Below are positions 1-30,520 of a DNA stretch of 38,992 nucleotides, one piece after another. How positions within the stretch are numbered: position 1 is the first letter of the stretch; each line of letters starts with the position of its first letter. Source of the stretch: SAR116 cluster bacterium (GTDB taxonomy: Bacteria > Pseudomonadota > Alphaproteobacteria > Puniceispirillales > Puniceispirillaceae); contig SHBD01000014.1 in the NCBI GenBank assembly GCA_004212735.1, positions 1 through 38,992 on the forward strand. Reading direction: 5' to 3'. Under the pieces are notes generated by a model. That model was not told where the DNA came from. It ran no database searches and saw nothing but the letters and a program-made list of their open reading frames with translations. The position numbers were made by a program, and so were the translations under genes.

Positions 1-264
1 CACTCCAGATGGCACATAAACGCCCTCTGGTTCACCATCCCACACATCATCTCCCCGCAAACCCAGCTTTTCAACCGTGACGTCGGCCACGACAGCATCA
101 ATCTGCCCGGTTGCGGGGACAATGCAGGTCTCGTACCCGGGCGTTGCATATTCAAAGCGGTCACCACGGGTCAATTTCACAATGTTGAAATAGGTCAACG
201 GAACATACGCATCGCGCACATCAATGATAGCTTTGTTTTGATTATTGAAAGGCGCGATATGCAT
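1..264 (-). CDS. IolB-like 5-deoxyglucuronate isomerase paralogue (partial, C-terminus off the edge)
   Basis: The first 88 codons of a gene that runs off the left edge; no stop is seen. It aligns by eye with the N-terminal half of KduI/IolB-family 5-deoxyglucuronate isomerases: LTYFNIVKLTRGDRF, then ETCIVPATG, and VYVPSG near the cut, matching the LTYxxF...GE..CxVxxxG...VYxP pattern of IolB. The ATG is preceded by GAGGAG with good spacing. It is the last visible gene of the inositol operon, 50 bases after the kinase at 315-1319. A complete IolB lies at 4021-4824, so this is a second, divergent copy. It may act on a related uronate or deoxy-sugar rather than the same substrate. The catalytic metal-ligand half is outside the window, so activity cannot be judged. 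Confidence 0.75.
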   Translation of the reverse strand, partial: MHIAPFNNQNKAIIDVRDAYVPLTYFNIVKLTRGDRFEYATPGYETCIVPATGQIDAVVADVTVEKLGLRGDDVWDGEPEGVYVPSGV

Positions 265-314
265 CTCGTGATCTCCTCATGATTTCTGTGCTGTTGGGTG
301 CCGCATCCACCTGT

Positions 315-1319
315 TTACGAGGACGCATAGCCAGCCATGAAACTGGCAAGCTCATGCCTGTTTGGCATCGCAGAGGCGCAGCCAGTTCTACTCACAACAA
401 GGGCTGCCGCCGCTGATCCCTCACGAATTACCACCTCAAGGCTAAGGCCATCCTGTAACCGCGCGAGCAATGTTCCCAAAAACGCATCGCCTGAACCGAA
501 TGGCTTGGCCAATTTTACCGGGAAAACGCCGAATTGCTGAATATCGCCGCCTAGCAACAGACGGCATCCTTTATGCCCCTGCTTGTAAACAATAATCTGC
601 CCGTCTGCCGCCATCTCGCGGGCAAGTGCAAAACCATCCCCATCAGCTCTGTCTCGGCTCGTGGCCAGCAGAGCAAACTCCTCATCATTCCCGACAATCA
701 TGTCACATTTGCGCGTAAAATTCAGCGTCCGTTCAGCTGCAACAGCCGAGGACTGCCATGCACTTGCACGGTAATCAACATCCAGAATCACCGGTTTTTT
801 CGCCTTCTGTGCAGCTTCGGCAAGGGTCTCGAGGGCGCGATCGGACGGACCATCAGACAGGGCAGTGCCTGTCAGTACGAGCGCTGCGACCCCATCAAAA
901 TCAATCCGAGACACATGGGCTTGCGAGAGCTGCATGTCACTGGCGTTATTGCGGTAAATGACAACATTCGCGTCATCTGGACGGCTCTCGGCAATCGCCA
1001 GCGAGCTACGGGTCATCGGTTCATCGGTGAAATGAAGATGATCTGTGTTAACACCATAATATGCCAGTTTCGAGGCGACAAACCGGCCAACCGCGTCATC
1101 GCTGAGAACTGACACAAGGCCTACATCCTTGCCATGACGGGCAATCGCGACAGCGATGTTTCCCGCTGAACCGCCGAGATCGGCAACGAAAGACGAGGCC
1201 TGTGTGATCGTTGTGCCTGCCGGCTCGGGATAAAGATCCATGCCGGCACGCCCAACAACAAGAAAACGACCATCTCTCAGGCTGGCAATGACCTCAGGTG
1301 AAGACAGGCGACGCCCCAT
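315..1319 (-). CDS. PfkB-family sugar kinase, IolC-like second copy
   Basis: A 334-residue PfkB/ribokinase-family kinase, cytoplasmic, expected to phosphorylate a sugar or deoxy-keto-acid with ATP. Near the N-terminus it has FLVVGRAGMDLYPEP and GGSAGNIAVAIARHG (substrate-side glycines). The PfkB signature 2 is at about 275-280 as GSGDAF with catalytic Asp278; the usual first glycine-alanine is replaced by GS. It resembles the kinase half of IolC but lacks the DUF2090 domain present in the full IolC at 6738-8651. Its ATG shares one base with the stop of the PhyH gene upstream (TAATG), so the two are probably translationally coupled. The position between a PhyH oxygenase and a second IolB-like gene suggests a kinase for a modified inositol breakdown product. 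5-dehydro-2-deoxygluconokinase or 2-keto-3-deoxygluconate kinase are the alternatives. Confidence 0.8.
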   Translation of the reverse strand: MGRRLSSPEVIASLRDGRFLVVGRAGMDLYPEPAGTTITQASSFVADLGGSAGNIAVAIARHGKDVGLVSVLSDDAVGRFVASKLAYYGVNTDHLHFTDEPMTRSSLAIAESRPDDANVVIYRNNASDMQLSQAHVSRIDFDGVAALVLTGTALSDGPSDRALETLAEAAQKAKKPVILDVDYRASAWQSSAVAAERTLNFTRKCDMIVGNDEEFALLATSRDRADGDGFALAREMAADGQIIVYKQGHKGCRLLLGGDIQQFGVFPVKLAKPFGSGDAFLGTLLARLQDGLSLEVVIREGSAAAALVVSRTGCASAMPNRHELASFMAGYASS

Positions 1320-2209
1320 TAAAAGACTTTCTTGGTGGCATCATGATTGGGATCATCCGGATCAGTCGTTTCAGCGCGCAAGAAGGCGTACGTAATATCC
1401 TCAACACCTTTCCAGCTGTAGGGATCATTGCCACATACCATAACAATATCACGCATATCACGCGTTGGGGAAATGCGCCCATCCCAATCCCAGGGCAACA
1501 TGGAATTCGCACTCATGTAATGATTCACCAGCGCCCTGCGGAACGTGCCTTCCGGTGCCTTGTTTGGGAAGCTGCGATGATGCAGATAGCCATTGAAGAT
1601 TATCGCAGCACCCCGTTTGACCTCAACAGAGATGCCCATATCTTCATCATCCGGGGTGCCTGTCAATTCATTGCCACTGTCAAAGTCGGCCGACCCATGA
1701 GGCGCAGTGTCATAGATCACACCATCTGCATGGCTGCCCGGTCTAACCCATAGGCAACCATTTTCAATCGTCGCGTCATCCAGTGCCAGCCAGACACCCG
1801 CCAAAGAACGGTCACGTGTCGGGATGAAATGCTCATCCTGATGCCAAGCCTGGCCCGGCTTTCCAGATGGTTTAATGAACAGCATTGATTGCATGCATTT
1901 GACATCTGGGCCAATCAGATATGACAACGTCTCTGCAATCGCCGGATGCGCAATAAATTCATCACGGATCAAATCAGACGCCTTGTGCGGGAACTGGACG
2001 GTCAGGTAACGCGATAACACCTCTGTGTTGTCAAGGTTGTCAGGCAGTTTTGCGATGCCACGCACCGCTCCCCGTTTGCCCCTACCAATTTCGGCAGCCT
2101 CAACCAAAAGCCTGTCACAATCCTCTTGTGACAGCATGTCTGGTATGACGACATATCCGTCACGATCGTAATCTGCCTTGATCTTCACCCAATGATCCGC
2201 GGTATCCAT
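1319..2209 (-). CDS. Phytanoyl-CoA dioxygenase (PhyH) family Fe(II)/2-oxoglutarate oxygenase
   Basis: A 296-residue non-haem iron oxygenase of the PhyH family, which couples 2-oxoglutarate decarboxylation to hydroxylation or oxidative demethylation of a small substrate. The facial triad is visible: H123-x-D125 in WHQDEHF and the distal His at 210/211 in LHHRSFPN, followed by an Arg at 224/225 for 2-oxoglutarate. The N-terminal DRDGYVVIPDML is typical of the family. I chose the ATG at 2209 because GGCGGGGGGAT precedes it; a longer reading from 2242 would overlap iolE. It lies 25 bases after iolE and is coupled to the kinase downstream. PhyH enzymes are not part of the standard inositol pathway. 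The substrate is unknown; an O-methylated or otherwise substituted inositol is a reasonable guess. Confidence 0.85.
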   Translation of the reverse strand: MDTADHWVKIKADYDRDGYVVIPDMLSQEDCDRLLVEAAEIGRGKRGAVRGIAKLPDNLDNTEVLSRYLTVQFPHKASDLIRDEFIAHPAIAETLSYLIGPDVKCMQSMLFIKPSGKPGQAWHQDEHFIPTRDRSLAGVWLALDDATIENGCLWVRPGSHADGVIYDTAPHGSADFDSGNELTGTPDDEDMGISVEVKRGAAIIFNGYLHHRSFPNKAPEGTFRRALVNHYMSANSMLPWDWDGRISPTRDMRDIVMVCGNDPYSWKGVEDITYAFLRAETTDPDDPNHDATKKVF

Positions 2210-2234
2210 TATATCCCCCCGCCTTGCATACCAG

Positions 2235-3134
2235 CTAGTCAATTACCTCAAACCCAGCCTTCGTCGCCGAACTTACAAGCGCATTATATCCAATCTTTGC
2301 ATATTCGAGAGGGTTCGCCTTGATCGGGTCCTGTTCAGCCTCGATTATCACCCAACCCTCATATCCAACTTCCGCCAGACGGTGCATGATATCATCATAG
2401 TCGATCATTCCGTCTCCAGGGACTGTGAAAACACCATCAAGAACGCAATCCAGAAAGGAGCGAGATTGTTTGTTGATGGATACCAGGACGTCCTCTCTAA
2501 TGTCCTTTGTGTGAACATGATTGATGCGCGAGCCATATTTGGCGATCACGGCCGCATTATCGCCACCGGCAAATAGCAAATGACCGGTATCAAGTAATAA
2601 ATTCACTGCCTCGCCTGTATGGTTCATCAACTGGTCAATCTCAGCCTCATGCTCCACAGCGGTGCCCATATGATGATGAAAAGTCAATGGCACACCAAAA
2701 TCCGCGCAATGTTCTGCAAGTGCCGTTAGTCTGCGCCCATACGCGGCAACATCAAAATCGGCCAGCTTCGGGCGACTGGCTAGCGGCCGCTCCTGTCTGT
2801 TCTGCACTGTTTCAAAGGTTTCCCCATAAACGATGACCGGGGCACCAACATCTCGGAACAACGTCAACTGAGGCGTGATCTGCTCGATCTCGGCGGCAAG
2901 ATCATTGTTGATAATTGTTCCTGAATACCAGCCGGAGACCAATGCCAGATCGTGATCATTCAGTACAGACTTCAGCGCACCAGCCTCGGTTGGAAACTTG
3001 CCACCATTTTCGGTGCCGGTAAAGCCCGCCTGTCTGGTTTCTGCAAGACATACCTCCAGGGGTGTCTCACCACCCAGCTGCGGCAGATCATCATTGCTCC
3101 ATGAAATGGGCGACATACCAAGACGGATTTTCAT
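2235..3134 (-). CDS. iolE: Inosose dehydratase IolE
   Basis: A 299-residue TIM-barrel enzyme of the AP-endonuclease-2/sugar-isomerase family. It matches IolE, which dehydrates 2-keto-myo-inositol to 3D-(3,5/4)-trihydroxycyclohexane-1,2-dione using a divalent metal. The N-terminal MSPISWSNDDLPQLGGETPL closely follows the IolE signature. Metal and substrate residues are visible in FHHHMGT, LLDTGHLLFAGGD, NHVHTKDIR and IIEAEQDP. Length is normal. The ATG follows AGGAAAATCTGA. It sits between two PhyH oxygenase genes in the inositol operon, which is an unusual placement. It supplies the substrate for IolD. Confidence 0.93.
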   Translation of the reverse strand: MKIRLGMSPISWSNDDLPQLGGETPLEVCLAETRQAGFTGTENGGKFPTEAGALKSVLNDHDLALVSGWYSGTIINNDLAAEIEQITPQLTLFRDVGAPVIVYGETFETVQNRQERPLASRPKLADFDVAAYGRRLTALAEHCADFGVPLTFHHHMGTAVEHEAEIDQLMNHTGEAVNLLLDTGHLLFAGGDNAAVIAKYGSRINHVHTKDIREDVLVSINKQSRSFLDCVLDGVFTVPGDGMIDYDDIMHRLAEVGYEGWVIIEAEQDPIKANPLEYAKIGYNALVSSATKAGFEVID

Positions 3135-3184
3135 TCAGATTTTCCTACGATAACAAAAATCAATTTAAGGCGGATGGCAAAGCC

Positions 3185-4015
3185 CTAACCAGCGGCTGAT
3201 TTGCCCTCGGCGTTGCCGGCAGCGGCTTCCTCCAGAAACTCTGGATAGCGCAAATTCGTGCCCAGAAGTTGATGCAGATCTGGTGATGCCGCCTCAACAA
3301 CATGCGCTGCGACACCTCGTTTGAGGTCCTCCATCGGCTTCACGAATTTGGGCAGATACTGGCCCAAAACAGATGTGCGCTCTCCCGCACTGTTATTTGG
3401 CATTGAGCAATGCCAGACGAGACCTGTGAACAGCAACAAGCTGCCGGGAGGACAGGACAATTGGATAAAAGCATCATCAAAGGCCTCTTTCGTGGGATAA
3501 ACGCCCGTCTTCTGAGAATTGGGAACGACACCGGTCGCCCCGTTTTCAGCGGTGAATTCATGCAGGCTGATCAACGACTGGCAATTCATGTGAAAGCCAG
3601 CATTCATACCCGCTGGAAATTCATCAGGATCATGCATGTCCCAGTAGGGATAATCGACATGCGGCTCTTGGCCCGGTGCCCCAGGCAGGAGACGGTTTGC
3701 CGCAAATGAACCAAGGATAAACTGTTTGCCGAGGATTTTGCCAAATACCTTCATCACGGCATTTTGTTGGACCATATCAACAAAAACCTGCCCTTTATTA
3801 AGCAGATTCCAGACGCGGCGTTGAAGGTGAATCTTGTCGGCATGCTCACCGTGAAAATGCGTTGCAGCCTGCGCTGTATCAGAATGATGGTTGATAATAC
3901 GGTTGGCCTCGGCAACCTCTGCCCCGTCAAAAACGCTCTCAAACAGGTGGTATCCCGGACCATTAAGCAAATCACCGATTGCTGTTTCGCAATCCCTGTC
4001 ACTAATTGTTCTCAT
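3185..4015 (-). CDS. PhyH-family Fe(II)/2-oxoglutarate oxygenase, second copy
   Basis: A 276-residue PhyH-family oxygenase. H119-x-D121 (EPHVDYPYW) and H202 (WHCSMPN) form the iron site, with R213 (GERTSV) as the probable 2-oxoglutarate anchor. It is only distantly similar to the PhyH enzyme at 1319-2209, so it is not a recent duplication and probably acts on a different position or compound. The ATG at 4015 is preceded by AGGGGTAACGGGA and lies 5 bases after the iolB stop; an in-frame ATG 10 codons upstream would overlap iolB and is less likely. The C-terminal tail is rich in Ala, Glu and Gly. The substrate is unknown. Confidence 0.85.
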   Translation of the reverse strand: MRTISDRDCETAIGDLLNGPGYHLFESVFDGAEVAEANRIINHHSDTAQAATHFHGEHADKIHLQRRVWNLLNKGQVFVDMVQQNAVMKVFGKILGKQFILGSFAANRLLPGAPGQEPHVDYPYWDMHDPDEFPAGMNAGFHMNCQSLISLHEFTAENGATGVVPNSQKTGVYPTKEAFDDAFIQLSCPPGSLLLFTGLVWHCSMPNNSAGERTSVLGQYLPKFVKPMEDLKRGVAAHVVEAASPDLHQLLGTNLRYPEFLEEAAAGNAEGKSAAG

Positions 4016-4020
4016 TCCCG

Positions 4021-4824
4021 TTACCCCTTCAAATTCATAATCCAATCATGTGCAGGATCATTTCGAAATTTCCAAATACGTTTCGGCCCAGCCATGACAT
4101 TCAGATAGTAACTCTCATATCCATGCGGGACTCCAACCGGATGATAGCCCTGCGGCACAAGAACCACAGATCTGTCATACGCCGCCATCGACTCATCAAG
4201 ACTGCGGTCATCATTATACACACGATGCATAACATAGCCTTGAGGCGGATTTACACGATGGTAATAAGTCTCCTCCAGATAGGACTCATCCGGCAGATCG
4301 TCAGTGTCATGTTTGTGCGGCGGATAAGATGACCAATTGCCCGATGGCGTGATTACCTCAACAACCAATAGGCTATCGGCAGGCTCAGTCTCAGGCAAGA
4401 TATTGCAGACATGCCGGGTGTTTGCGCCGGTGCCCCGGGTTTCCAGCGACATCAACTCTGGCGTGATATGACGTGGCGGATGAGTGCCATCAATTCCCGG
4501 TGCACGGCAGATGGCAACCTCTGAAGCCGTTGTCGCCTCCACCTTCCACGCGGTCTGCATTGGCACATAAAAAGCATGCGCCGGCACACCATCAAAAACT
4601 GACTCACGTCCCTGAATATGACCAAAATCAACATCGCCAGCTTTCAGTGAAGCCGCGCCACTCAGCAGAACGATGCACAATTCATTGCCGTCACCGCTGC
4701 CTTCTATGACACCGCCAGGCCCCAGATCATGCAATCCAAAGCCGACATGACCCCAGCCCGCACTCTGCGGCGTGATATCGTGCACCACAGTGCCACTTGT
4801 CGGTTTTACAAGTAAATCTGCCAT
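4021..4824 (-). CDS. iolB: 5-deoxy-glucuronate isomerase IolB
   Basis: A 267-residue KduI/IolB-family cupin that isomerises 5-deoxyglucuronate to 5-dehydro-2-deoxygluconate in myo-inositol breakdown. The whole length matches: LLVKPTSG at the start, SVFDGVPAHAFYVP in the middle, and the conserved C-terminal block NWSSYPPHKHDTDDLPDES, EETYYHRVNP, VPQGYHPVGVPHGY and GPKRIWKFRNDPAHDWI. The metal-site His and Glu residues (HKHD, EETYYH, GYHP) are all present. The start follows GGGGATGGCAA. It lies 64 bases after iolD. This is the authentic copy, in contrast to the divergent paralogue at 1-264. Confidence 0.95.
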   Translation of the reverse strand: MADLLVKPTSGTVVHDITPQSAGWGHVGFGLHDLGPGGVIEGSGDGNELCIVLLSGAASLKAGDVDFGHIQGRESVFDGVPAHAFYVPMQTAWKVEATTASEVAICRAPGIDGTHPPRHITPELMSLETRGTGANTRHVCNILPETEPADSLLVVEVITPSGNWSSYPPHKHDTDDLPDESYLEETYYHRVNPPQGYVMHRVYNDDRSLDESMAAYDRSVVLVPQGYHPVGVPHGYESYYLNVMAGPKRIWKFRNDPAHDWIMNLKG

Positions 4825-4888
4825 TTGCCATCCCCATCAAAATAATCAACATTCTTATTGTCACAGAACAAACTCACCAGCGACAAGG

Positions 4889-6736
4889 TCATTTATCACC
4901 TTTTTCCTGTCGTTTGCGCCCCTGCACATAGTTTTCATAAGCTGAGTTGACAGAACCACGGTCAGAAATCGCTGGCACGGCAACGTCCCACCAGACCCCT
5001 CCGGCCTCAGTACTGGGTCCGGGATCAGTATCAATGACAATCACATCTACACCTGTGCGACCGCTGGCCATCTGCACCGCCTCTTCCAACTCATCGAGCG
5101 ATGAGACTTTCTGTGATCGGGCACCAAGGGATGCAGCGTGCGCGGCATAATCAATTTCCGGCAATATCTCATGATAGGCATCAGCCAGCAGATTATTGAA
5201 TGGGGCGCCGCCAGTTGCCGCCTGCAATCTGTTGATACAGCCATATCCGCGATTATCAGTAATGATAAGGGTCATGGAAATGCCCATCATCACTGCTGTC
5301 GCTAGCTCAGAATTCATCATCAGATAGGAACCGTCACCAGCGAAAACGACGTTGGGGCGATCAGGCGACGCCATGTACACACCAATGCCGGCTGACACCT
5401 CATAGCCCATGCAGGAAAAGCCATATTCCATGTGATAGCCATCAACAGAACCGGCCCGCCAGAGCTTATGTAATTCTCCGGGCATTGACCCGGCGGCACC
5501 CACAGCAATCGTTGGGGACGGCACATTCCTATTTACCGCGCCAATCACGGCGCTGTCTGATGGCAAGGCGTTGCCGTCAGGCTTTTTGACAACGGCATCA
5601 ACAGCTGAGTCCCACTCGCCCTTGAGTGTCGCAAACTCCTGTTGGTAGGCAGCAGATGTACGATGCCCGGCCAACGCGTATCCCAACGCCTCAACCCCGA
5701 CAAGCGCATCGCCGACAACTGTCATGGCATCATGCTTGATGGCATCATGAAGTTGCACATTGAGCGCCAGAACCTGCCCCTTGATCAATCCATTTGAACC
5801 GGTCGTGAAATCCTGTAGCCGGCTGCCAACTGACAGAACCACATCAGCTCTCTGCGCAAGTTCATTCGCTGCCGAACTGCCGGTAACACCGAGTGATCCG
5901 ACATAATTTGGATGCGCCTCCGGCATCACCGATTTGCCAGCCTGCGTAGCAGCAACGGGGATGCCGGAACTCTCGGCGAAAGCTGTCAACGCGGCACTGG
6001 CGCCAGAATAGCGCACACCACCACCGGCAAGGATCAAAGGACGTTTCGCCTCTCTAATGACGGCAATGGCCTTCGCCATTTCGGCTTCATCTGGGCGCTG
6101 GCGACGCATCTCCCAGATCCTCGACGCAAAAAATCTATCCGGGAAAGCATAGGACTCAGCCTGAACGTCTTGGCAAAGCGACAGGGTGACTGGCCCGCAT
6201 TGCGCCGGATCGGTGAGCACTGACATCGCCTTTGGCAATGACTGGAGGATTTGCTCAGGGCGTGTGATGCGATCAAAATAACGACTCACTGGCCGAAAAC
6301 AATCATTCGCTGATACGGTACCATCGGCAAAATCTTCAACCTGCTGCAACACCGGGTCCGGTCGCCGGTCAGCAAAAACATCACCCGGAAGCAACAGCAC
6401 TGGCAAGCGGTTGACATGCGCCAGCGCTGCTGCAGTCACCATATTCGTGGCACCAGGTCCAATCGAGGAGGTGACAGCCATGAATCGCCGCCGGTTCATC
6501 TGCTTTGCATAGGCGATTGCAACATGGGCCATGCCCTGTTCATTATGGCCACGAAACGTCGGCAAGCTGTCACGCTGGCCGTAGAGCGCCTCGCCCAAGC
6601 CCGCAACATTTCCATGTCCAAAGATCGCCCAAACACCTGCAAATGCCGATGCAACACTTCCATCAAGCTGGCGAATTGACTGGGCAGCCATCCATTTTGT
6701 CAGAGCTTGCGCCATCGTAAGCGTTGTGGTCGTCAT
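4889..6736 (-). CDS. iolD: 3D-(3,5/4)-trihydroxycyclohexane-1,2-dione hydrolase IolD
   Basis: A 615-residue thiamine-diphosphate enzyme that opens the inositol-derived ring to 5-deoxyglucuronate. The ThDP-activating Glu is E66 in RGHNEQG. The central FAD/nucleotide-like domain contains LILAGGGVRYSG. The ThDP/Mg motif runs from GDGSYLMM at about 467 to NRGYGC at about 495. The early GNVAGLGEAL and GPGATNMV segments are typical of IolD. Length is normal for the family. The ATG at 6736 follows GGAGAGTAAA and lies one base after the iolC stop; an ATG 10 codons upstream would overlap iolC. Confidence 0.95.
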   Translation of the reverse strand: MTTTTLTMAQALTKWMAAQSIRQLDGSVASAFAGVWAIFGHGNVAGLGEALYGQRDSLPTFRGHNEQGMAHVAIAYAKQMNRRRFMAVTSSIGPGATNMVTAAALAHVNRLPVLLLPGDVFADRRPDPVLQQVEDFADGTVSANDCFRPVSRYFDRITRPEQILQSLPKAMSVLTDPAQCGPVTLSLCQDVQAESYAFPDRFFASRIWEMRRQRPDEAEMAKAIAVIREAKRPLILAGGGVRYSGASAALTAFAESSGIPVAATQAGKSVMPEAHPNYVGSLGVTGSSAANELAQRADVVLSVGSRLQDFTTGSNGLIKGQVLALNVQLHDAIKHDAMTVVGDALVGVEALGYALAGHRTSAAYQQEFATLKGEWDSAVDAVVKKPDGNALPSDSAVIGAVNRNVPSPTIAVGAAGSMPGELHKLWRAGSVDGYHMEYGFSCMGYEVSAGIGVYMASPDRPNVVFAGDGSYLMMNSELATAVMMGISMTLIITDNRGYGCINRLQAATGGAPFNNLLADAYHEILPEIDYAAHAASLGARSQKVSSLDELEEAVQMASGRTGVDVIVIDTDPGPSTEAGGVWWDVAVPAISDRGSVNSAYENYVQGRKRQEKGDK

Positions 6737-6737: not shown

Positions 6738-8651
6738 TTACTCTCCTGCCTTGTCCCAGGCATCAATCAGGCCTGCAAACAAGTCTGTCATGTTAGCGAC
6801 AGCCGTGTCATCATCTATCCGTCCGTTGAGCCAATCCTGCGCGGCACCAGCAAAAATCGTCCTACCAACGGCAAATCCCTTTACCAGAGGTTCAGATTTT
6901 GCATTTTCAAAGACGCTTGCCAGCACATCGGGCTCGGCCTCCTTGCCGAGGACGATGATTCCCTGCAAATGTGGATCATTGGCACGTACAATATCGCCAC
7001 ATCGCCTCCAGAATTCCGCCTCTAGGACAGGCTCCAGCTTCCACCAATCCGGTAAAATTCCTAATTCGTAAAACCGATTCATCAAGGCATGGATCTGCTC
7101 AGGAGCGGCTGGTTTATCAGGTCGCGCCGTAATTATTTCTAGCAGGAACTCATGGCGCGTCCGGCGACACGCATCCGCAAGCTGAATGAGTAGTCGCTCG
7201 TGATGGATCCGAAGTTCCTCGCTGTCATCCATGCGGCAGGGAGCCAGAACTTTGACACAATGATTTACCGGCCACTCGGCAAGCCGCGACCCAATGTCCG
7301 GTTCCTCACTCAGCGCCAACGGGAAAACACCCGATTGTTCAATTGGCCGGCCAATCCACATATCATCATCCGATGCTGCGTGGAGCGCTGAGCGGCCAAG
7401 CTCGTCATCGACCAGAATGCCAACACCCTCGCCACGTCCCAGAAGATTACGCGCAGCAGACAGCGCCAGAGTTTTAAAGGCATCAACCGCACTTTCATCC
7501 CTGCCAGCCTGTTCGGCCCATTTGACAAACTGATGCCGGTGATCAAAGGCAAAGGCTGTCAGCCTGTCATAGCGACGGTGCCTTGTCGTTGACCAATGCA
7601 AATTCTCCAACGCCTGATCCTTGCGAAGGGCAAATTGGGTGCTGCCATTTTCCAGCAGATGTGTGAGCTCCGCAAACGATGGGTAGGCTGGCGCACAGCC
7701 ATGCCGCGAAACCGCGAGCGCCCCGCACGCATTTGCGAAACTGGCACAGGTGGCCAACGACTCATCACGCAGCCAACCGCGCAGAAACCCAGACATGAAA
7801 CCGTCACCAGCGCCAAGCGTGTTGTAAATCTCAATTTTCCTGACTGGGACGCTGATACCACTGTCCCATCCACCGATGTTAGCTGCGAACACAGTGCATC
7901 CAAGTGCCCCGCGTTTGCAGACAAAAACAGCAGCGCTAAGAGCCCGACATGCGCGCAAGCCAGCAAGCGTGTCAGTTGTCCCGCTGGCAATGTGCCATTC
8001 TTCCTCGGTTCCAACAACCAGATCACAATGTGGCAAAATGGTTTGCAGATGAGCCGTGACGGCCTCGCTTGCCGCAAACCTGCTCTCGCCATCTCCATGA
8101 CCACCGAGCGCCCACAGATTGGGCCGATAATCGATGTCAAAACAGACCCTGCGACCATAGTTGCGGGCAAGTTTCATCGCCTTGAAACTCGCATCGGCAA
8201 CACCTTGAGTGCTGAAATGCGTCCCCGTTACAAGAACGGCACTCGCCGAGGCAATGAAATCCTCATCGATGTCGTCCTCGCATATCGCCATATCGGCGCA
8301 ATTTTCACGATAGAAAATCAGCGGAAATTGCTCTCTATTTCGGATACCCAACAACACCAGAGCGGTCAATCGCTGGGCGTCGGTAATCACATTGGATGTG
8401 TCAACGCCCTCAGCCTCAAGCTGCTCTCGAACAAAGCGGCCCATATGCTCATCACCAACACGGGTGATCAGCGCCGACTTCAAACCAAGACGGGCGCTAC
8501 CGATGCTGATGTTGGTTGGGCTTCCACCAATATATTTGGCAAAACTTGCCATATCCTCAAGTCGGCCACCGACCTGAGAGCCATAAAGATCAACCGATGA
8601 TCGGCCGATGCAGATGACGTCAAGCTTTGGATTATAAGGCGTGTCACCCAT
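6738..8651 (-). CDS. iolC: Bifunctional 5-dehydro-2-deoxygluconokinase / DUF2090 aldolase (IolC fusion)
   Basis: A 637-residue two-domain protein. Residues 1 to about 340 are a PfkB kinase with VICIGRSSVDLYG, the GGSPTNISIGSARLG substrate loop and NTLGAGDGF with catalytic Asp283; this half phosphorylates 5-dehydro-2-deoxygluconate. Residues about 345-637 are DUF2090, found fused to IolC in many proteobacteria and thought to act as the 5-dehydro-2-deoxyphosphogluconate aldolase (IolJ role). Lys467 (CVKVLAPCR) and Lys538 (DWWKLEP) are candidate Schiff-base lysines. No separate iolJ is seen in the window, which fits the fused aldolase doing that step. The ATG has AAGG about 10 bases upstream. 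Confidence 0.93.
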   Translation of the reverse strand: MGDTPYNPKLDVICIGRSSVDLYGSQVGGRLEDMASFAKYIGGSPTNISIGSARLGLKSALITRVGDEHMGRFVREQLEAEGVDTSNVITDAQRLTALVLLGIRNREQFPLIFYRENCADMAICEDDIDEDFIASASAVLVTGTHFSTQGVADASFKAMKLARNYGRRVCFDIDYRPNLWALGGHGDGESRFAASEAVTAHLQTILPHCDLVVGTEEEWHIASGTTDTLAGLRACRALSAAVFVCKRGALGCTVFAANIGGWDSGISVPVRKIEIYNTLGAGDGFMSGFLRGWLRDESLATCASFANACGALAVSRHGCAPAYPSFAELTHLLENGSTQFALRKDQALENLHWSTTRHRRYDRLTAFAFDHRHQFVKWAEQAGRDESAVDAFKTLALSAARNLLGRGEGVGILVDDELGRSALHAASDDDMWIGRPIEQSGVFPLALSEEPDIGSRLAEWPVNHCVKVLAPCRMDDSEELRIHHERLLIQLADACRRTRHEFLLEIITARPDKPAAPEQIHALMNRFYELGILPDWWKLEPVLEAEFWRRCGDIVRANDPHLQGIIVLGKEAEPDVLASVFENAKSEPLVKGFAVGRTIFAGAAQDWLNGRIDDDTAVANMTDLFAGLIDAWDKAGE

Positions 8652-8707: not shown

Positions 8708-9496
8708 TTAGACAGCCAATTCCTTGGCAAGATCACCGATTTCGGCACCGCCTGCCATCAGCCGTTTGATGTCATCACCTTCCAGATCCTTTGAGGTGCC
8801 ACTACCAATAACCTCTCCCAGCGACAGGAACGTAAAACGGTCTGCAATCAGCCGGGCGTGGATCTCGTTGTGCGTGATCAGGATGATGGCGATGTCACCA
8901 AGCTGCTGCACGCGCCGAATGGTTTTCAGGACTTCCATCTGCTGTTTTTGTCCAAGGGCCGAAGTCGGCTCGTCAAGAATAAGCACCTTGGCGCCAAAAT
9001 AAATCGCCCGCGCAATGGCAAGAGTCTGGCGCTGACCACCCGACATGGTGCCAACCGCCTGTTCCGGATCGGTAATGGTAATACCAATCTTGGCCATTTC
9101 CTCAGCAGCGATGCGATGCATCTCCTTCATCTTCATCAGCGCAAAGGGGCTGCTGAAATGCGTCAGTTCGCGACCCAGAAAGAAATTACGGGTAACTGAA
9201 CTAAGGGGGTTGAGGGCCAAATCTTGATAAACCGTACCGATACCAGCCTCAGTTGCGTTACGCGGCGATGCAAACTTTACTGCTTTACCTTCGACCAGTA
9301 TCTCGCCATCAGTGGCAGGAAAGACACCAGACAAAACCTTAATGAGCGTAGATTTTCCCGCACCATTATCACCAAGCAACGCATGCACTTCGCCGGGGTA
9401 AACCTTCAAGGACACACCGTTCAACGCCGTGAATGCACCAAATTTTTTGACCAGGTTGCGCGTTTCGACAAGGGGTGCTGCGTCTGAAATCGCCAT
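8708..9496 (-). CDS. Sugar ABC transporter ATP-binding protein (FrcA/CUT2 type)
   Basis: A 262-residue single-domain ATPase of a CUT2-type importer. Walker A is GDNGAGKST at 42-50, the Q-loop is VYQDLALNP, the signature is MSGGQRQ at 151-157, Walker B is LILDEPTSALG, and the H-loop is ILITHNE. Its one-domain length matches FrcA rather than the duplicated RbsA/MglA. The start at 9496 follows GGGGGCGATATAAC and lies one base after the permease stop. It energises uptake through the permease at 9498-11084. The operon context indicates myo-inositol or a related cyclitol as cargo, but the sequence alone does not fix the substrate. Confidence 0.92.
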   Translation of the reverse strand: MAISDAAPLVETRNLVKKFGAFTALNGVSLKVYPGEVHALLGDNGAGKSTLIKVLSGVFPATDGEILVEGKAVKFASPRNATEAGIGTVYQDLALNPLSSVTRNFFLGRELTHFSSPFALMKMKEMHRIAAEEMAKIGITITDPEQAVGTMSGGQRQTLAIARAIYFGAKVLILDEPTSALGQKQQMEVLKTIRRVQQLGDIAIILITHNEIHARLIADRFTFLSLGEVIGSGTSKDLEGDDIKRLMAGGAEIGDLAKELAV

Positions 9497-9497
9497 G

Positions 9498-11084
9498 TTA
9501 TATCGCCCCCATGATACGTTTTCGTATATTCTCATTGAGCAGCGCCGAAGCCACAATCACAAGACCAAGGAAGACACGATAGAAAGACCCATCGATGCCC
9601 GGTATATAGAAAAAGGCCTCTTTGGCGAGACCAAAGATAAAAGCACCAACAATGATGCCAAGCACCGTTCCAAAGCCACCAGTCATGACGATGCCACCAA
9701 TCACCGCCGCAGCAATCGCCTCAAGTTCCTTCAGGTTGCCGCGGGCAGCGTCAGCTGTATTTACCTCAAAGACCTGACAGGCTGCAAATATGGTCGCACA
9801 AAATGCCGAGAAGACAAACAGCGCAATCTTGACCTTGTTTGTTGGCACACCATTGGCCTTGGCCGCCATGAGATTACCACCAGTTGAGTAAATCCAGTTA
9901 CCAGCCTGTGTGCGGCTGAGAACGACATAGCAAAGCAGCGCCATAATCAGACAGATCATCACACAGGAATAAAGTCCCTGCGCAAACTGATTGCCAAAAT
10001 TATTGGTGTTCCAGTCAATCGGAAAATACAACCAGTCAAACACCGGCTCCATGATATCGCCGCCAAAGAAATTGGCGATGGGGCGTGCCGAATGAAGCGT
10101 ATCAATGTAAGCCCGGGCAATATCAATATCGGTCACAGACTTCGCCACAACAGGATCAATTTTGAAGGTGGCGATCTTGTCTTGAATCGTCGTAACCATC
10201 TGCTCGTTGCCCGACTCGATCGCGTTTTCGAGAGCTCGCTCAAGCGGTTTTACACCACGCTCAGTCATGATCGCAGTCTTCGCATCCGCCACCCGTTGAT
10301 AAGTGTGGGCCAACCGTTCGCTGAGCGAGGCCACGGTGTCAGCGGGCACATCCTTGAGGATATTCAGTAGATCAGTCTCGGGCAGAGCCTTTGCCGCCTC
10401 ACGTTCCATTTCCCCATGACCTGGTACATCAACAATGTTTTTGATGTCAGGAATTTCGGTCACAGTCGTAGCACCCTTGGCCTGATCCGGGCGATGGTTG
10501 AATGACCGGAGTGACACCTCGGTCAGTCCCCGCAGGAAGAACAAACCACCAAGCGTAACAATGAAAGACGGCAACCCCGATTTGACGACGATGTAACCCT
10601 GAAGCCAGCCGAAAAACAGAGTAAAGCAGAGGGTAATCAACAGCGCGCCGAGTGGCGAGACGTCAGGTATGTGCAGGAGCGTGAAAAACTCCAGATGAAT
10701 GCCGCCCTCAAACGATAGATAGGGGATGATAACCGAGAAACCCCATCGCAGTATCATCGCCATACAGGCACCAGCAAAGCCAATCATCGATCCAATCGAA
10801 AGATCAAACTCACCAGCAATAATCAGTAGACCAGCACCCAGTGCTATGATTGCCAGCTGCGAAATCACCTTCAGATTGTTGCGAATGCCAAGCGCGTTGA
10901 AACCCTCTCCGGCAAATGGGTTCCAAGAAAATTCACCAGCCGGAATAGAAAAATATCCAAGCATTCCGAACAGTAGCAACATGACGCCAATCGGACCAAT
11001 CTCAGGTCTGGCAAAAATTGTTGCAAACCATGATTTCGAGGCGTGGCGGTCAGCTTCCTGACGGGTCGTTTCAGACGTGTTCAT
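9498..11084 (-). CDS. Sugar ABC transporter permease (FrcC/RbsC type) with large internal insert
   Basis: A 528-residue inner-membrane permease of the BPD_transp_2 family. The membrane core is recognisable: LAIIALGAGLLIIAGEFDLSIG (contains the family's GxxxLSxG segment), GLPSFIVTLGGLFFLRGL, GNWIYSTGGN and the C-terminal AIAAAVIGGIVMTGGFGTV. Typical RbsC/FrcC permeases are about 320-360 residues. Here about 145 hydrophilic residues (195-340) are inserted after the GLFFLRGL helix. The insert is predicted helical and charged and should lie on the periplasmic side. The gene is second in the inositol operon, after the binding protein and a terminator-like hairpin. Function as a sugar permease is clear; the role of the insert is unknown. 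Confidence 0.9.
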   Translation of the reverse strand: MNTSETTRQEADRHASKSWFATIFARPEIGPIGVMLLLFGMLGYFSIPAGEFSWNPFAGEGFNALGIRNNLKVISQLAIIALGAGLLIIAGEFDLSIGSMIGFAGACMAMILRWGFSVIIPYLSFEGGIHLEFFTLLHIPDVSPLGALLITLCFTLFFGWLQGYIVVKSGLPSFIVTLGGLFFLRGLTEVSLRSFNHRPDQAKGATTVTEIPDIKNIVDVPGHGEMEREAAKALPETDLLNILKDVPADTVASLSERLAHTYQRVADAKTAIMTERGVKPLERALENAIESGNEQMVTTIQDKIATFKIDPVVAKSVTDIDIARAYIDTLHSARPIANFFGGDIMEPVFDWLYFPIDWNTNNFGNQFAQGLYSCVMICLIMALLCYVVLSRTQAGNWIYSTGGNLMAAKANGVPTNKVKIALFVFSAFCATIFAACQVFEVNTADAARGNLKELEAIAAAVIGGIVMTGGFGTVLGIIVGAFIFGLAKEAFFYIPGIDGSFYRVFLGLVIVASALLNENIRKRIMGAI

Positions 11085-11098
11085 AAGTTTTATTCCAT

Positions 11099-11128
11099 AA
11101 AAAAAGTGGGTAGCCAGAAGCTACCCAC
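11099..11128 (-). terminator. Intercistronic terminator-like hairpin between binding-protein and permease genes
   Basis: A perfect 9-bp inverted repeat, GTGGGTAGC (11106-11114) and GCTACCCAC (11120-11128) with a 5-base loop. Read on the minus strand it is followed directly by seven T residues (11105-11099). It lies 16 bases after the binding-protein stop. As in many sugar ABC operons it probably stops most transcripts, so that binding protein is made in excess over permease and ATPase. Confidence 0.85.
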
Positions 11129-11144
11129 CCCGATGTTTTGTTGC

Positions 11145-12050
11145 TTATCTGTCTACACCCGCGAGGGCGGCAACAGAAGAGGCGTTTGACTTGTCAACAA
11201 AGCCTGGACCCGATGGGATATTCGCGCCAGGAAGCAGGCCTGCACCGTTGGTGTACAGGTGCAGAACGACCACTGGCATGTAGCCCTGCAGACGCTGCTG
11301 CTGGTCAATTGTGTACTGAACCTTGCCAGCGTTGATCATGTCCATAACTGGTGGGCTGAGGTCAAAGCATGAGTGGTGAACTGACATGCCCAGCTCATCA
11401 ATCGCTTGCTGTACACCCACACAAACATGTGGTCCGACAGACAAAACAGCGTCGATGTCGGGGTTAGCCTGCAGACCGGCAGCCGCACGCGTTGGGATTG
11501 TGGCCGGATCGTTCGAGCTGTCGACCAATTTGATTGGCACAGACTCACCATAACCGTTACATCTGTCGTTCAGCGCCGTGTTGTAGGCTTCCTGAATGAA
11601 GCAGAGGCCCTTTGTTGCGCCTTCGGCTTTTGCACGCGCACCAGCTGACTGACCAGCGAGGAACTCAGGCTGACCAACATGCATAAGCGCGCCAACGTCC
11701 TTTGAAGATTCAAGACCTGAGTTCATCGTGATGACTGGAATACCCGCAGCGACAGCGTCCTTGATTGCCTGACCAAGCGCGTCTGGGTCGGGTAAAGACA
11801 CAACGATGCCATCTGGCTGAGTTGCAGCGGCCGCAGTGATTGACTTTGCCATATCACCCATGTCGCCTGATGGATTAAAGATGTATTCGAAGTCTGCACC
11901 AACATGACGTGCAGCGTCCTCTCCACCTTTTTGCACGACAGGCCAGAACGGATCCTTGCCCTCACCGTGGGTAATCATAACATAGCGCTCAGCGAACGCG
12001 GTTGTTGACAGCATCACAGTTGCCGCCAATGCCAAAATAACTTTTTTCAC
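11145..12050 (-). CDS. Periplasmic sugar/cyclitol-binding protein (Peripla_BP_4)
   Basis: A 301-residue substrate-binding protein of a CUT2 ABC importer. The GTG start at 12050 has a near-perfect GGAGG 5 bases upstream and gives a clean signal peptide, VKKVILALAATVMLSTTAFA, probably cleaved before ERYVMITHG. A longer reading from 12161 would add 37 residues in front of the signal peptide and is rejected. Mature-protein features include GKDPFWPVVQKGGEDAA and DGIVVSLPDPDALG, both typical of ribose/inositol-type binding proteins. It is the first gene of the inositol operon. Cargo is inferred as myo-inositol or a derivative from the downstream iolCDBE. Confidence 0.9.
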   Translation of the reverse strand: MKKVILALAATVMLSTTAFAERYVMITHGEGKDPFWPVVQKGGEDAARHVGADFEYIFNPSGDMGDMAKSITAAAATQPDGIVVSLPDPDALGQAIKDAVAAGIPVITMNSGLESSKDVGALMHVGQPEFLAGQSAGARAKAEGATKGLCFIQEAYNTALNDRCNGYGESVPIKLVDSSNDPATIPTRAAAGLQANPDIDAVLSVGPHVCVGVQQAIDELGMSVHHSCFDLSPPVMDMINAGKVQYTIDQQQRLQGYMPVVVLHLYTNGAGLLPGANIPSGPGFVDKSNASSVAALAGVDR

Positions 12051-12343
12051 GATATCCTCCCAAAAATACGTTAGGTAGCTACACACACCCTGATTTGAGT
12101 GTATTTTAACGCCCTGATCTAAAATCTGAGCGTTGAACAGACAACCCAGAAAGTTTGCCAATGTAAAGTAAAATTTCGCAAATCTCAGGAAAACATGCTC
12201 TCAGATTGTAACGCAATGATTCAAAATCTTTACTACCTTTACGGTTTGCGAGTTCGCGGTTTAATGTGGGCACCGCCTGTAGGCAGGCATCATCTCAAGC
12301 GGGTTCATCGGAACACACTATTACACGGTAAGAGGAATCAAAA
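12051..12343. promoter_or_regulatory. Divergent promoter region of the inositol operon and the Gfo/Idh-SDR pair
   Basis: A 293-base non-coding stretch between two divergently transcribed units. It must hold the promoter of the large minus-strand inositol operon and that of the plus-strand oxidoreductase pair. On the minus strand TAAAAT within GCGTTAAAATACAC is a possible -10 element, but no matching -35 was found. TTTGCC and GCAAAT half-sites flank an AT-rich core near 12162-12190. No regulator gene is adjacent, so the operator cannot be assigned. Confidence 0.45.
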
Positions 12344-13471
12344 ATGCGGCAGATTGGCATTGGAGTTATTGGAACGGGGTTTATGGGCAATGCGCACTCA
12401 ATTGCCTATAGTGCGTCGGCCTCGGTATTCGGCACAACGCTGCGGCCACGGCTCGAGGTGGTTTGCGACCTCAGTCCTGACCGCGCAAGCCAGCGCGCGA
12501 CAAACCTTGGTTTTTCCAACTATACCTCGGATTGGATGGAGGTGGTGAACAATCCGGCAGTCGAATTGGTTTCCGTCTGCACTCCCAACGACACCCATGC
12601 CGAGATTTCAATCGCAGCCCTTGCTGCCGGCAAGCATGTATGGTGCGAGAAGCCAATGTCGACCTCGCTTGAGGATAGCGCCGCCATGGCCGCCGCCGCC
12701 GCCAACAGTACCGGAAAAACGATTATTGGCTATAATTATACAAAGAATCCTGCCATTACGCATGCCCGTCACCTCATCGAACAGGGCACGATCGGGCGAG
12801 TCGCTGGCTTTTTTTGTCGCTATGATGTCGACAATGAGGCCGATGGCAATCGCCCTTGGTCATGGCGCATGTCGCGTGACAAGTCAGGTACGGGCGCAAA
12901 TGGCGATGTACTCAGCCACGTTATTTCAGTGGCACATTATCTGACCGGGTCAACCATCAAGCGCCTCTCCGGTGACATCGCGATTGTCCATCCTGAGCGT
13001 GACGACCCAGAGGTACCGGGCACCACAAAAACAGTGGACAATGATGATATGGTCTCCGCGTTAATCCATTTTGCAAATGGGGTTCGCGGACATATCGGGG
13101 CTAGCCGCGTGACCTGGGGCCGGAAATGCGGTTTACGCTGGGAGGTGCATGGCACCGAGGGAACAATTGTTTTCGATCAGGAGCGACTGAATGAAATCAA
13201 GCTTTTCACCCGCCAGAACGATCCCGCAACAGACGGCTTTCGCACCATTCTGACTGGACCTCTGCATCCTCCCTACTCCGCCTTTCTACCGAATGGCGGG
13301 CATAGCCTTGGTTACATGGATGTAAAAATCTGTGAGCTTCATGATCTTTTGACCTCGATAGAGTCAGGCGAGGATGTTTGGCCTAATTTTGAGGCGGGTC
13401 TGATCATTGAAAAGGTTATGGACGCTGTTGACCGGTCAGCAAGAGATCAACGCTGGGTGGATGTGGAATAA
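12344..13471 (+). CDS. Gfo/Idh/MocA-family NAD(P)-dependent oxidoreductase
   Basis: A 375-residue sugar or cyclitol dehydrogenase. The N-terminal Rossmann fold has GTGFMG at 10-15, and the family Lys is K103 in CEKPM. An Asp188/His192 pair in GDVLSHVISV resembles the catalytic D...H of inositol dehydrogenases. The C-terminal half is the usual beta-sheet substrate domain. AAGAGGAA precedes the ATG. It is only distantly like the IolG at 14277-15278. It is the first gene of a two-gene unit with an SDR, divergent from the inositol operon. It probably oxidises a ring hydroxyl of an inositol isomer or another pyranose/polyol; the substrate is not determined. Confidence 0.87.
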   Translation: MRQIGIGVIGTGFMGNAHSIAYSASASVFGTTLRPRLEVVCDLSPDRASQRATNLGFSNYTSDWMEVVNNPAVELVSVCTPNDTHAEISIAALAAGKHVWCEKPMSTSLEDSAAMAAAAANSTGKTIIGYNYTKNPAITHARHLIEQGTIGRVAGFFCRYDVDNEADGNRPWSWRMSRDKSGTGANGDVLSHVISVAHYLTGSTIKRLSGDIAIVHPERDDPEVPGTTKTVDNDDMVSALIHFANGVRGHIGASRVTWGRKCGLRWEVHGTEGTIVFDQERLNEIKLFTRQNDPATDGFRTILTGPLHPPYSAFLPNGGHSLGYMDVKICELHDLLTSIESGEDVWPNFEAGLIIEKVMDAVDRSARDQRWVDVE

Positions 13472-13475
13472 TCTC

Positions 13476-14267
13476 ATGCAGGCAAACAACAGCAGCAATC
13501 AAGTGATCATCTCGGGCGGCACGCAGGGCCTTGGCCTTGCGGTGGCAAAGATGATGGTTCAGCAGGGTTGCACGGCAATCATCATCACTGGACGCAACAC
13601 CCAAAAGGGCGAGGCTGCGGCAGCAGAAATTTCCGCCCTCGGCGCAGCTTGTGACTATATCACCTGCGATGTCGGACAAGAGGATGATTGTCACCGGCTG
13701 ATTGATCAGGCTCTCGACAGACTCGGCACGATCAATGCGCTGGTCAATTGCGCAGCCATTACAACCAGAGGGTCAATCCTCGATACCAGTCCCAAAACAT
13801 GGCATGAGCATATGGCAATCAATCTGACCGGACCATTCCTGTTGATGCAGGGTGTGGCCAGGCATCTTGAGGCAAAAGGAAATCCGGGCAGCATTGTCAA
13901 CATCCTGTCCACATCAGCGCATGTGGGACAGAGCTTCCTTGCTCCCTATTCGGCATCGAAGGGTGGCCTGATGACCTTGACCAAAAATGCGGCAAATGCG
14001 TTGCTCACTAAACGCATCCGGGTCAACGGCGTTGCGCCAGGATGGATGGATACGCCTGCCGAGGATGCAATCCAAAAGACGTATCATGACGCACCAGAAA
14101 ATTGGCTGGAGTTGGCCGAGGCCAAAATGCCGATGGGGCAATTGGCAAAGCCAGATCAATTGGCGCCCCTCATCGCTTGGCTGCTCAGCCCGGACTCAGG
14201 CGTCATCACCGGCTCGATCATAGATTATGACCAACAAATCGTCGGAGCACTGGCTGAAAATGGATGA
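13476..14267 (+). CDS. Short-chain dehydrogenase/reductase (SDR)
   Basis: A 263-residue classical SDR. The NAD(P) motif is SGGTQGLG near residue 15; NCAAI replaces the usual NNAG; catalytic residues are Ser in ILSTSAHVG and Tyr/Lys in YSASK. The start is uncertain: ATG at 13476 lies 4 bases after the preceding stop, with GTGGA upstream. ATGs at 13461 and 13407 are in frame but overlap the previous gene. The tail after the second PG region (VAPGWMDTP) is normal. It is co-transcribed with the Gfo/Idh enzyme and likely acts on the same polyol route. It ends 9 bases from the convergent iolG. Confidence 0.87.
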   Translation: MQANNSSNQVIISGGTQGLGLAVAKMMVQQGCTAIIITGRNTQKGEAAAAEISALGAACDYITCDVGQEDDCHRLIDQALDRLGTINALVNCAAITTRGSILDTSPKTWHEHMAINLTGPFLLMQGVARHLEAKGNPGSIVNILSTSAHVGQSFLAPYSASKGGLMTLTKNAANALLTKRIRVNGVAPGWMDTPAEDAIQKTYHDAPENWLELAEAKMPMGQLAKPDQLAPLIAWLLSPDSGVITGSIIDYDQQIVGALAENG

Positions 14268-14276: not shown

Positions 14277-15278
14277 CTAGCCCACCTTCACCCTGACAGA
14301 CGCTCCGGTGCGAACAGACTCAACAGCTGCATCGGCAAGCAGCAGAGCATTCAGACCATCAACCCCTGTCGGGTTGGCAGGTGAACCATCTGTCAAGCTG
14401 GAGACGAAGCTAGCAATTTCATTGGCGTAGGCATCTATGTAACGCGTCATGAAAAAATCATGCAGAGGCGGTCGCATGTAGCCATTCGCCGTGGCGATTT
14501 CGATAGAGACTGGGCGCTGGTTTTCGGCAGCGACCATGCCAAGCGAGCCATGCACTTCAACCCGCTGGTCATAGCCATAGCTTGCCCGGCGTGAATTGGT
14601 GATCGTCACTTGTTTTCCCGACGCCATCTTCATAATCACTGACGCTGTATCAAAATCCCCCAACGGTCCAATTGCCGGATCAGTCAGCACAGAGCTGATT
14701 GCCTGAACCGTCTCGGGCATCTCACCCATTAAAAAGACGGCCATGTCAAAATCGTGAATTGTCATGTCCCTGAAGATTCCGCCTGAACGTTGAATGTATT
14801 CCGCTGGCGGCGCCCCTGGATCGCGCGAGGTAATGATGGCCATTTCCGGAGTGCCAATTTGGCCCTCCTCAATGGCTTTGCGAACCGCCATGAAGTGTGG
14901 ATCAAACCGACGGTTGAAACCAACCATCAAAAATCCATCCTCAGCCGCGACAACCTCAAGGCAATCACTCACGCGTGCCACGTCAAGGTCGATTGGTTTT
15001 TCACAGAAAATTGCCTTTTTTGCGCGTGCAAACTGTTCGATCAGGTCTGCATGCATATCGGTTGGAGTGCAGATCACGACCGCATCGATATCACTGCTGC
15101 CTGCAATTTGATCAATCGTGCGGACGTCACAGCCGTAGCGCTCGGCGATTGCATCCGCGGCGTCCGGCATTGGATCAGCAACAGCTCGCAAAACAGCATT
15201 TTCATTTCCTGCAACTGCCCGCGCATGTACCTGTCCGATGCGCCCCGCACCCAGAATCGCAAAATTTATCGTCACCAT
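14277..15278 (-). CDS. iolG: Myo-inositol 2-dehydrogenase IolG
   Basis: A 333-residue Gfo/Idh/MocA enzyme oxidising myo-inositol to 2-keto-myo-inositol with NAD+, the first step of the pathway whose later enzymes are in the operon to the left. GAGRIG is at 10-15, the family Lys is K94 in FCEKPID, and Asp171/His175 in FRDMTIHDFDMA are the catalytic pair known from Bacillus IolG. GFNRRFDPHF and YGYDQRVEVHGSLGM are also characteristic. GGGAGAAA precedes the ATG at 15278; an ATG 7 codons upstream lacks a good site. It is a lone gene, divergent from xylBA and convergent with the SDR. Confidence 0.93.
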   Translation of the reverse strand: MVTINFAILGAGRIGQVHARAVAGNENAVLRAVADPMPDAADAIAERYGCDVRTIDQIAGSSDIDAVVICTPTDMHADLIEQFARAKKAIFCEKPIDLDVARVSDCLEVVAAEDGFLMVGFNRRFDPHFMAVRKAIEEGQIGTPEMAIITSRDPGAPPAEYIQRSGGIFRDMTIHDFDMAVFLMGEMPETVQAISSVLTDPAIGPLGDFDTASVIMKMASGKQVTITNSRRASYGYDQRVEVHGSLGMVAAENQRPVSIEIATANGYMRPPLHDFFMTRYIDAYANEIASFVSSLTDGSPANPTGVDGLNALLLADAAVESVRTGASVRVKVG

Positions 15279-21527: not shown

Positions 21528-21582
21528 CACCCTTGCCTCTTTCCTCGTACCATCCATTCAATCCATACCTGCCGATGTCTCA

Positions 21583-22722: not shown

Positions 22723-22790
22723 CAAAGCGTCCCTTTCTTCCACAATCGATCCAAATGAGCGGCCTGTCTCAAGCTCCGAACCATCAGCCA

Positions 22791-23774: not shown

Positions 23775-23775
23775 A

Positions 23776-29473: not shown

Positions 29474-29474
29474 C

Positions 29475-30500: not shown

Positions 30501-30520
30501 TTACTTCGCCAGCCAGCGTT

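Follow-up and report, generated by a model that had tools for sequence, protein, structure and literature searches.

Accessory Fe(II)/2-oxoglutarate oxygenases in a predicted myo-inositol operon of a SAR116 cluster bacterium: a possible side-entry for substituted inositols

This study examined an inositol operon on contig SHBD01000014.1 of a SAR116 cluster bacterium; the window is the whole contig (C6; 38,992 bases) of a 2.49 Mb genome assembled in 66 contigs. The operon reads, on the minus strand, iolC (kinase and DUF2090)-iolD-iolB-PhyHa-iolE-PhyHb-PfkB2-IolB2, in which PhyHa and PhyHb are Fe(II)/2-oxoglutarate (2OG) oxygenases of the PhyH superfamily, and PfkB2 and IolB2 are a second kinase and a second isomerase-like protein. 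We favor, with slightly less than even confidence, the explanation that an ordinary myo/scyllo-inositol operon carries accessory Fe(II)/2OG oxygenases as a side-entry, with PfkB2, IolB2, and an aldolase forming a second lower pathway. Oxygenase side-entry to inositol catabolism is well supported, and PhyHa is probably some kind of accessory cyclitol oxygenase, the cyclitol being assigned as its substrate from genomic context. Genomes and loci are denoted below by our own handles (G and L numbers).

The window proteins were scanned with Pfam and NCBIfam models under the cut-offs of the families, and IolE, IolD, IolB, IolC, and IolG all scored above their NCBIfam cut-offs within one region. Judged by these genes, the locus is of the myo-inositol catabolic operon type. 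The original prediction located an intact iolCDBE core at positions 1–6736; all four proteins pass the curated models, but iolC (6738–8651) lies outside that range. The second PfkB kinase and the IolB-like protein proposed downstream are both real, the latter being truncated by the contig end so that 88 amino acids (aa) are seen. Adjacent frames of the operon overlap or are at most 64 bases apart. The ratio of nonsynonymous to synonymous substitutions (dN/dS) between the window and G012 was 0.052 for PhyHa, 0.048 for iolE, 0.054 for iolB, 0.102 for PhyHb, and 0.160 for PfkB2. As the gene order recurs in relatives, several of those named being SAR116-cluster records, and these five genes are under purifying selection, the arrangement is more than chance.

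Both PhyHa and PhyHb score above the cut-off of the PhyH superfamily (PF05721) and contain the HxD...H...R site with invariant residues, which confirms the claim that two oxygenases with complete sites flank iolE. The PhyHa site consists of H129-x-D131, H212, and R223 (numbering of the long open reading frame, ORF), all invariant in 19/19 homologues aligned, and that of PhyHb consists of H134-x-D136, H221/H222, and R235/R236, invariant in its four sequences. The predicted structure of PhyHa had a mean predicted local distance difference test (pLDDT) score of 74.5 and was weak at residues 59–77 and 134–151, near the HxD site. Its fold matched those of SptF, AndA, and FtmOx1, with kanamycin dioxygenase ranking lower (Z 20–24 and root-mean-square deviation 2.8–3.4 over 215–247 aligned residues, among the best 50 matches). 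Given the invariance of the four residues, PhyHa is very likely an active Fe(II)/2OG oxygenase.

PhyHa was found in 11 of the 61 family genomes, the same 11 being all those found among the 136 of the order, and in 4/385 genomes of an even sample of the class, two of the four being family genomes. In all 11 carrying family genomes, PhyHa lies directly before iolE, which follows within about 70 bases, and the PhyHa and iolE distances among these genomes were strongly correlated (Mantel r 0.902, matched by 0/10,000 permutations). Therefore, from this placement, the correlation, and a dN/dS as low as that of iolE, PhyHa is co-inherited with iolE and retained by selection. An arrangement unique to this genome, which had been named as a possible refutation, is excluded, since the full PhyH-iolE-PhyH order occurs in G000 (the window genome), G012, and G014 (3/11). 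G000 has ten PhyH matches in total, two of them in the inositol operon. No match to PhyHa or PhyHb was obtained in plasmid records at E 1e-20 or in PHROGs. The IMG/VR contigs L112 and L113 each encode a protein 33% like PhyHa.

The loss of PhyHa can be followed in near relatives, whose operons are otherwise retained in the stretches read. Six family genomes (G001, G003, G007, G051, G054, and G060) have an iolB-iolE junction without PhyHa, and two of these, G051 and G054, belong to the same genus as five carriers. In these two, the junction holds a 32- or 26-codon frame (L077:1230-1370 in G051; L076:9560-9670 in G054) that begins at the PhyHa start, where it overlaps the stop of iolB, and whose final residues, just before iolE, resemble those of PhyHa. 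Against G056, the number of shuffles out of 5,000 that reached the observed score was 4 for the N-end and 0 for the C-end in G054, and 0 and 7, respectively, in G051. Against the carriers G053 and G048, the C-end was clear (0 to 19/5,000) and the N-end was weaker (23 to 1,028/5,000). Read from its sequence, this frame is an in-frame internal deletion scar of PhyHa. In G001, G003, G007, and G060, as in the outgroup G330, the junction spans 33–59 bases, and no PhyHa remnant was seen. These absences, two of them with a deletion scar, demonstrate that PhyHa is accessory and dispensable to the operon. Such a loss, with the pathway retained, is expected of an accessory enzyme that widens the substrate range.

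PhyHa also occurs beyond the family. L094 (complete genome G213, of another family) and L041 (a Pseudooctadecabacter metagenome-assembled genome) contain iolD2-PhyHa-PfkB2-IolB2-aldolase-iolG, with PhyHa proteins of 45–50% identity. At the Inquilinus loci L037, L038, and L042, PhyHa is divergent from a gene for a Gfo protein that is 53–54% identical to the GfoC protein of L094; scyllo-inositol dehydrogenase (5ya8) is the best solved relative of both the L037 protein (286 bits) and GfoC, and a LacI regulator lies near PhyHa in L037. In L036 (Verrucomicrobiales), PhyHa is beside a short-chain dehydrogenase (SDR) that is 49% like the window SDR, and in L095 its neighbors are an SDR and an HpcH/HpaI aldolase. 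Of the 19 aligned PhyHa proteins, 13 (from the 11 family genomes, L041, and L094) belong to inositol operons and three more are beside a scyllo-inositol-dehydrogenase-like protein, whereas those of L036 and L095 are in neither setting; L039, a fourth Inquilinus locus among the 19, was left without an assigned gene context by ORF calling. The expectation that the oxygenases supplement inositol catabolism is borne out by the constant position of PhyHa beside iolE, its presence in two other alphaproteobacterial inositol operons, and its loss in near relatives.

PhyHb is rarer. It stands between iolE and PfkB2 in G000, G012, and G014, is absent from that position in 7 of the 11 PhyHa genomes, and was unread in G049 owing to broken frames; it is also present in G011, where the contig ends inside iolE. 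Across the class, it was found in 2/385 genomes at E 1e-45, both of the family. A third PhyH protein, PhyHc (382 aa; PF05721 101 bits in L080), accompanies inositol genes in L080, L081, L083, L096, and L103 at 45–56% identity to the L080 copy. The recurrence of distinct PhyH-type genes (PhyHa, PhyHb, and PhyHc) at inositol loci hints at a shared kind of task. A HalD-like protein beside PfkB2 in G001 was not counted (21 bits against a cut-off of 26; 23% identical to PhyHb; HxD unaligned).

The second kinase and isomerase are partly outside the curated models. PfkB2 of the window scored 277.6 against TIGR04382 (300 needed) and its homologues scored 260–323, with 10 matches in other genomes passing, and IolB2 scored below TIGR04378 (205 needed) both as the window fragment (27.5) and as full-length homologues (about 138–172 bits); a full-length copy (281 aa as used) is found in G012 (L020). 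Relatives add a class II aldolase (PF01116), so that PfkB2-IolB2-aldolase forms a kinase-isomerase-aldolase unit. IolB2 was found in 13/385 genomes of the class at E 1e-60, the cut copy of the window genome not being counted. In G001, G002, and G007 (G002 and G007 being 76–77% complete), the set is separate from the core, whereas in G054, which lacks PhyHa, it accompanies the core; no PhyH gene was present in the stretches read of these four. In G038, G044, and G059, also without PhyHa, the set follows iolD2 (the aldolase is cut or unreached in G044 and G059), and PhyHc is at their inositol loci.

Among the 16 other genomes checked with all three models, IolB2 and PfkB2 were the sole IolB and IolC homologues alongside IolD in seven (G090, G213, G220, G310, G388, G394, and G441), at the limits used. 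G388 carries PhyHc, and G090, G220, G310, and G394 have no PhyH gene in the stretch read. Because these seven genomes possess no other IolC/IolB-type proteins at those limits, the set is most simply read as an alternative clade of IolC/IolB/IolJ doing ordinary IolC/IolB work. A division of labor between IolB and IolB2 is possible, since many family genomes keep both. The set is away from iolD in G090 and G394 (f31), and no iolD was found in G317; thus, the set may have a wider role, for example on uronates.

Several loci of this set were recorded in their own right. In L105, L106, and L107 (G090, G317, and G394; about 1.4 Mb), PfkB2-IolB2-aldolase has a Gfo protein and an aldehyde dehydrogenase as neighbors, with an aldose epimerase also in L105. 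A GFA-family (glutathione-dependent formaldehyde-activating) protein is encoded directly upstream of PfkB2 at L101:11582-11998 (G220), in a stretch without a PhyH gene. A recurrent alternative inositol operon, with parts varying by locus, was seen in L080, L081, L098, L099, L100, L102, L103, and L094; it comprises a LacI-like regulator (Pfam-checked in L094 only), an ATP-binding cassette (ABC) transporter, Gfo-IolE-like (about 26%)-Gfo, and iolD2-kinase-IolB2-aldolase(-iolG).

Inositols with methyl or other substituents are common solutes of plants and algae. In the mechanism that we propose, PhyHa would oxidize a substituted inositol or inosose, and the product would join the IolG/GfoA-IolE-IolD route. 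The likeliest reaction would be the oxidative removal of an O-methyl group, in which 2-oxoglutarate and O2 would yield succinate, CO2, and formaldehyde, although another substituent is possible and O-methyl removal itself is put forward only tentatively. PhyHb would be a second, less common oxygenase, presumably playing the same role at another position or on another compound, and PfkB2-IolB2-class II aldolase would be a second lower pathway, which in some other Alphaproteobacteria would be the only IolC/IolB/IolJ. It is doubtful, though conceivable, that PhyHa founds a family of 2OG-dependent cyclitol O-demethylases, or removers of another substituent, in SAR116-type and some other Alphaproteobacteria.

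Several observations weigh against this explanation. The substrate of PhyHa is predicted from context, its closest solved folds are fungal natural-product oxygenases and, lower, kanamycin dioxygenase, none of which is named an O-demethylase, and the scan of the operon genes revealed none for formaldehyde handling. Among the genes read beside PhyHa in L036 and L095, there is no inositol gene. G213 and G441, two of the genomes with the sole set, carry PhyHa, which weakens the view that PfkB2 and IolB2 are unrelated to it. Moreover, GfoA and GfoC proteins and the SDR are also present where PhyHa is absent, and G054, which lacks PhyHa, has a transporter binding protein of 92% identity. The available text of a report on scyllo-inositol dehydrogenase gives eight substrate or catalytic residues (K106, Y135, Y163, E165, R178, D191, H195, and H318; PMC5969746), of which GfoA of the window keeps seven, with V at E165. 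This change was tried and rejected as a marker of a special substrate because it occurs in 8/8 close family homologues, four of them from genomes without PhyHa. Since the binding protein and the E165V change both occur without PhyHa, they indicate no special imported substrate.

The original prediction assigned the duplicate kinase and isomerase to the analogue produced by the oxygenases. In such a scheme, PhyHa and PhyHb would alter the substrate, and the ring-opened analogue would be handled by PfkB2, IolB2, and the aldolase as dedicated enzymes. This is consistent with the proximity of PhyHa to the PfkB2-IolB2-aldolase set in operons of the window type, in L028/L029 (where no iolCDB is beside them), and in L041/L094, with PhyHc in G038, G044, and G059, and with the canonical IolB that family genomes with IolB2 mostly also keep. 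The four genomes with the set but no PhyH gene in the stretch read, and the seven in which the set is the sole IolC/IolB, four of these likewise without PhyH in the stretch read, weakened the dedicated branch, and we regard it as improbable. The idea that PhyHa replaces or bypasses IolD as the ring-opening oxygenase arose from L028/L029, which hold PhyHa-iolE-PfkB2-IolB2-aldolase with no iolD adjoining. It was dropped as extremely unlikely, since iolD is elsewhere in both genomes; IolD is also found in 10/11 family PhyHa genomes (the exception, G009, is 58% complete), and PhyHa and iolD stand side by side in L041/L094.

Kanamycin dioxygenase (KanJ) catalyzes the oxidative deamination of an amino sugar. 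PhyHa might similarly deaminate an aminocyclitol, such as an inosamine, to an inosose that feeds IolE directly; the solved relatives include KanJ (26 bits; Z 20.3), and rhizopine use depends on inositol catabolism according to the available text of two reports (PMC10107442, PMC6637203). However, KanJ is far from the best match, and no ferredoxin or other non-PhyH oxygenase is among the operon genes scanned, indicating that this is not a moc system; we consider the deamination decidedly unlikely. That PhyHa is a passenger of unrelated role lodged in the operon would suit the loci without inositol genes among those read (L095, with an SDR and the HpcH/HpaI aldolase, and L036, with an SDR) and the loss of PhyHa while the operon stays. 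The placement in 11/11 genomes, the co-inheritance with iolE, and the repeated occurrence in other inositol operons and next to a homologue of scyllo-inositol dehydrogenase make such a passenger very unlikely.

The features of the locus are given in Table 1. Upstream of the operon are an ABC transporter, GfoA, an SDR, and iolG, and transporter homologues are upstream of iol genes in many relatives. The best NCBIfam match of GfoA was levoglucosan dehydrogenase (332 bits, below the cut-off of 650), and a second Gfo protein, in G031, keeps E at position 165. The PhyHa and PhyHb starts (likely ATG 4015 and 2209) were picked by a ribosome-site-like stretch, and the likely ATG of iolD is 6736. Promoter-like sites in the window were at chance level (9 found against 11.3 expected) and terminator-like sites were above it (28 against 12.0); neither was used. 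A second catabolic-looking cluster at 20559–34943 contains four SnoaL-like proteins, histidinol-dehydrogenase-family and cobalamin-independent methionine-synthase-like proteins, a cupin, an amidohydrolase, and, by reading, ABC-transporter-like ORFs.

Table 1. Features of the inositol locus in the window, with the supporting model or structure matches.
Feature	Positions	Strand	Evidence
IolB2, second KduI/IolB-family protein, 88 aa, truncated at contig end	1..264	-	PF04962 55 bits; TIGR04378 27.5 bits
PfkB2, second IolC-like PfkB kinase	315..1319	-	PF00294 165 bits; TIGR04382 277.6 bits (cut-off 300)
PhyHb, Fe(II)/2OG oxygenase	1319..2209, ORF open to 2242	-	PF05721 131 bits (cut-off 22)
iolE, inosose dehydratase	2235..3134	-	TIGR04379 395 bits (cut-off 290)
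PhyHa, Fe(II)/2OG oxygenase	3185..4015, ORF open to 4045	-	PF05721 66 bits (cut-off 22)
iolB, 5-deoxyglucuronate isomerase	4021..4824	-	TIGR04378 330 bits (cut-off 205)
iolD, trihydroxycyclohexanedione hydrolase	4889..6736, ORF open to 6766	-	TIGR04377 875 bits (cut-off 715)
iolC and DUF2090 aldolase-type domain fusion	6738..8651	-	NF047869 693 bits (cut-off 600); PF09863 339 bits
ABC sugar-type transporter: ATPase, permease, binding protein	8708..12161	-	named by reading three ORFs
GfoA, scyllo-inositol-dehydrogenase-like Gfo/Idh/MocA protein	12344..13471	+	best PDB relative 5ya8, 345 bits
SDR adjoining GfoA	13407..14267	+	PF13561 184 bits
iolG, inositol 2-dehydrogenase	14277..15299	-	TIGR04380 405.5 bits (cut-off 355)

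In the open-licence literature searched, no paper was found that describes a PhyH enzyme as part of an inositol operon, and we read the window operon as a new form of a known type. To our knowledge, the opening of substituted inositols by marine bacteria has been little studied. The available text of a transcriptome paper has a phytanoyl-CoA dioxygenase and inositol genes in different rows of a table (PMC6637203), and that of a SAR116 paper treats inositol as an osmolyte precursor, the words "phytanoyl" and "dioxygenase" being absent from its main text (PMC12262181). A conserved oxygenase in an inositol operon, with natural deletion mutants in close relatives, poses a concrete gene-substrate question. 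If PhyHa does found a family of cyclitol O-demethylases or substituent removers, SAR116-type and some other Alphaproteobacteria could use methylated inositols, and PhyHa would be a 2OG-enzyme counterpart to the ferredoxin oxygenase of rhizopine use. The second IolB/IolC clade indicated here, missed or partly caught by curated models, affects pathway calls in marine Alphaproteobacteria.

Among known systems, the rhizopine moc oxygenase demethylates its substrate. The window resembles that system in that mocDEF are involved in using a modified inositol, a use that requires inositol catabolism, as far as the available text of the sources goes (PMC10107442, PMC6637203). It differs in that moc has a ferredoxin oxygenase complex, according to the title of a paper cited in PMC10107442. 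The window oxygenases are PhyH-type 2OG enzymes (PF05721), and the operon genes scanned include no MocDEF-type ferredoxin, the rest of the genome being unsearched. PHYHD1, SptF, AndA, FtmOx1, DhiD, and kanamycin dioxygenase share the family, fold, and Fe/2OG site of PhyHa, whereas their identity to it is 13–22% in structural alignments; these known PhyH-type oxygenases act on other compounds. GfoA is similar to the Paracoccus scyllo-inositol dehydrogenase/L-glucose dehydrogenase (5ya8) in score and in seven of the eight residues, with Val in place of the Glu165 of that enzyme. Finally, in comparison with the iol operon (IolG, IolE, IolD, IolB, IolC, and IolJ), the window has iolG, iolE, iolD, iolB, and iolC-DUF2090 above the cut-offs, and adds to them a pair of Fe(II)/2OG oxygenases and a further kinase-isomerase set, which in relatives includes the aldolase.

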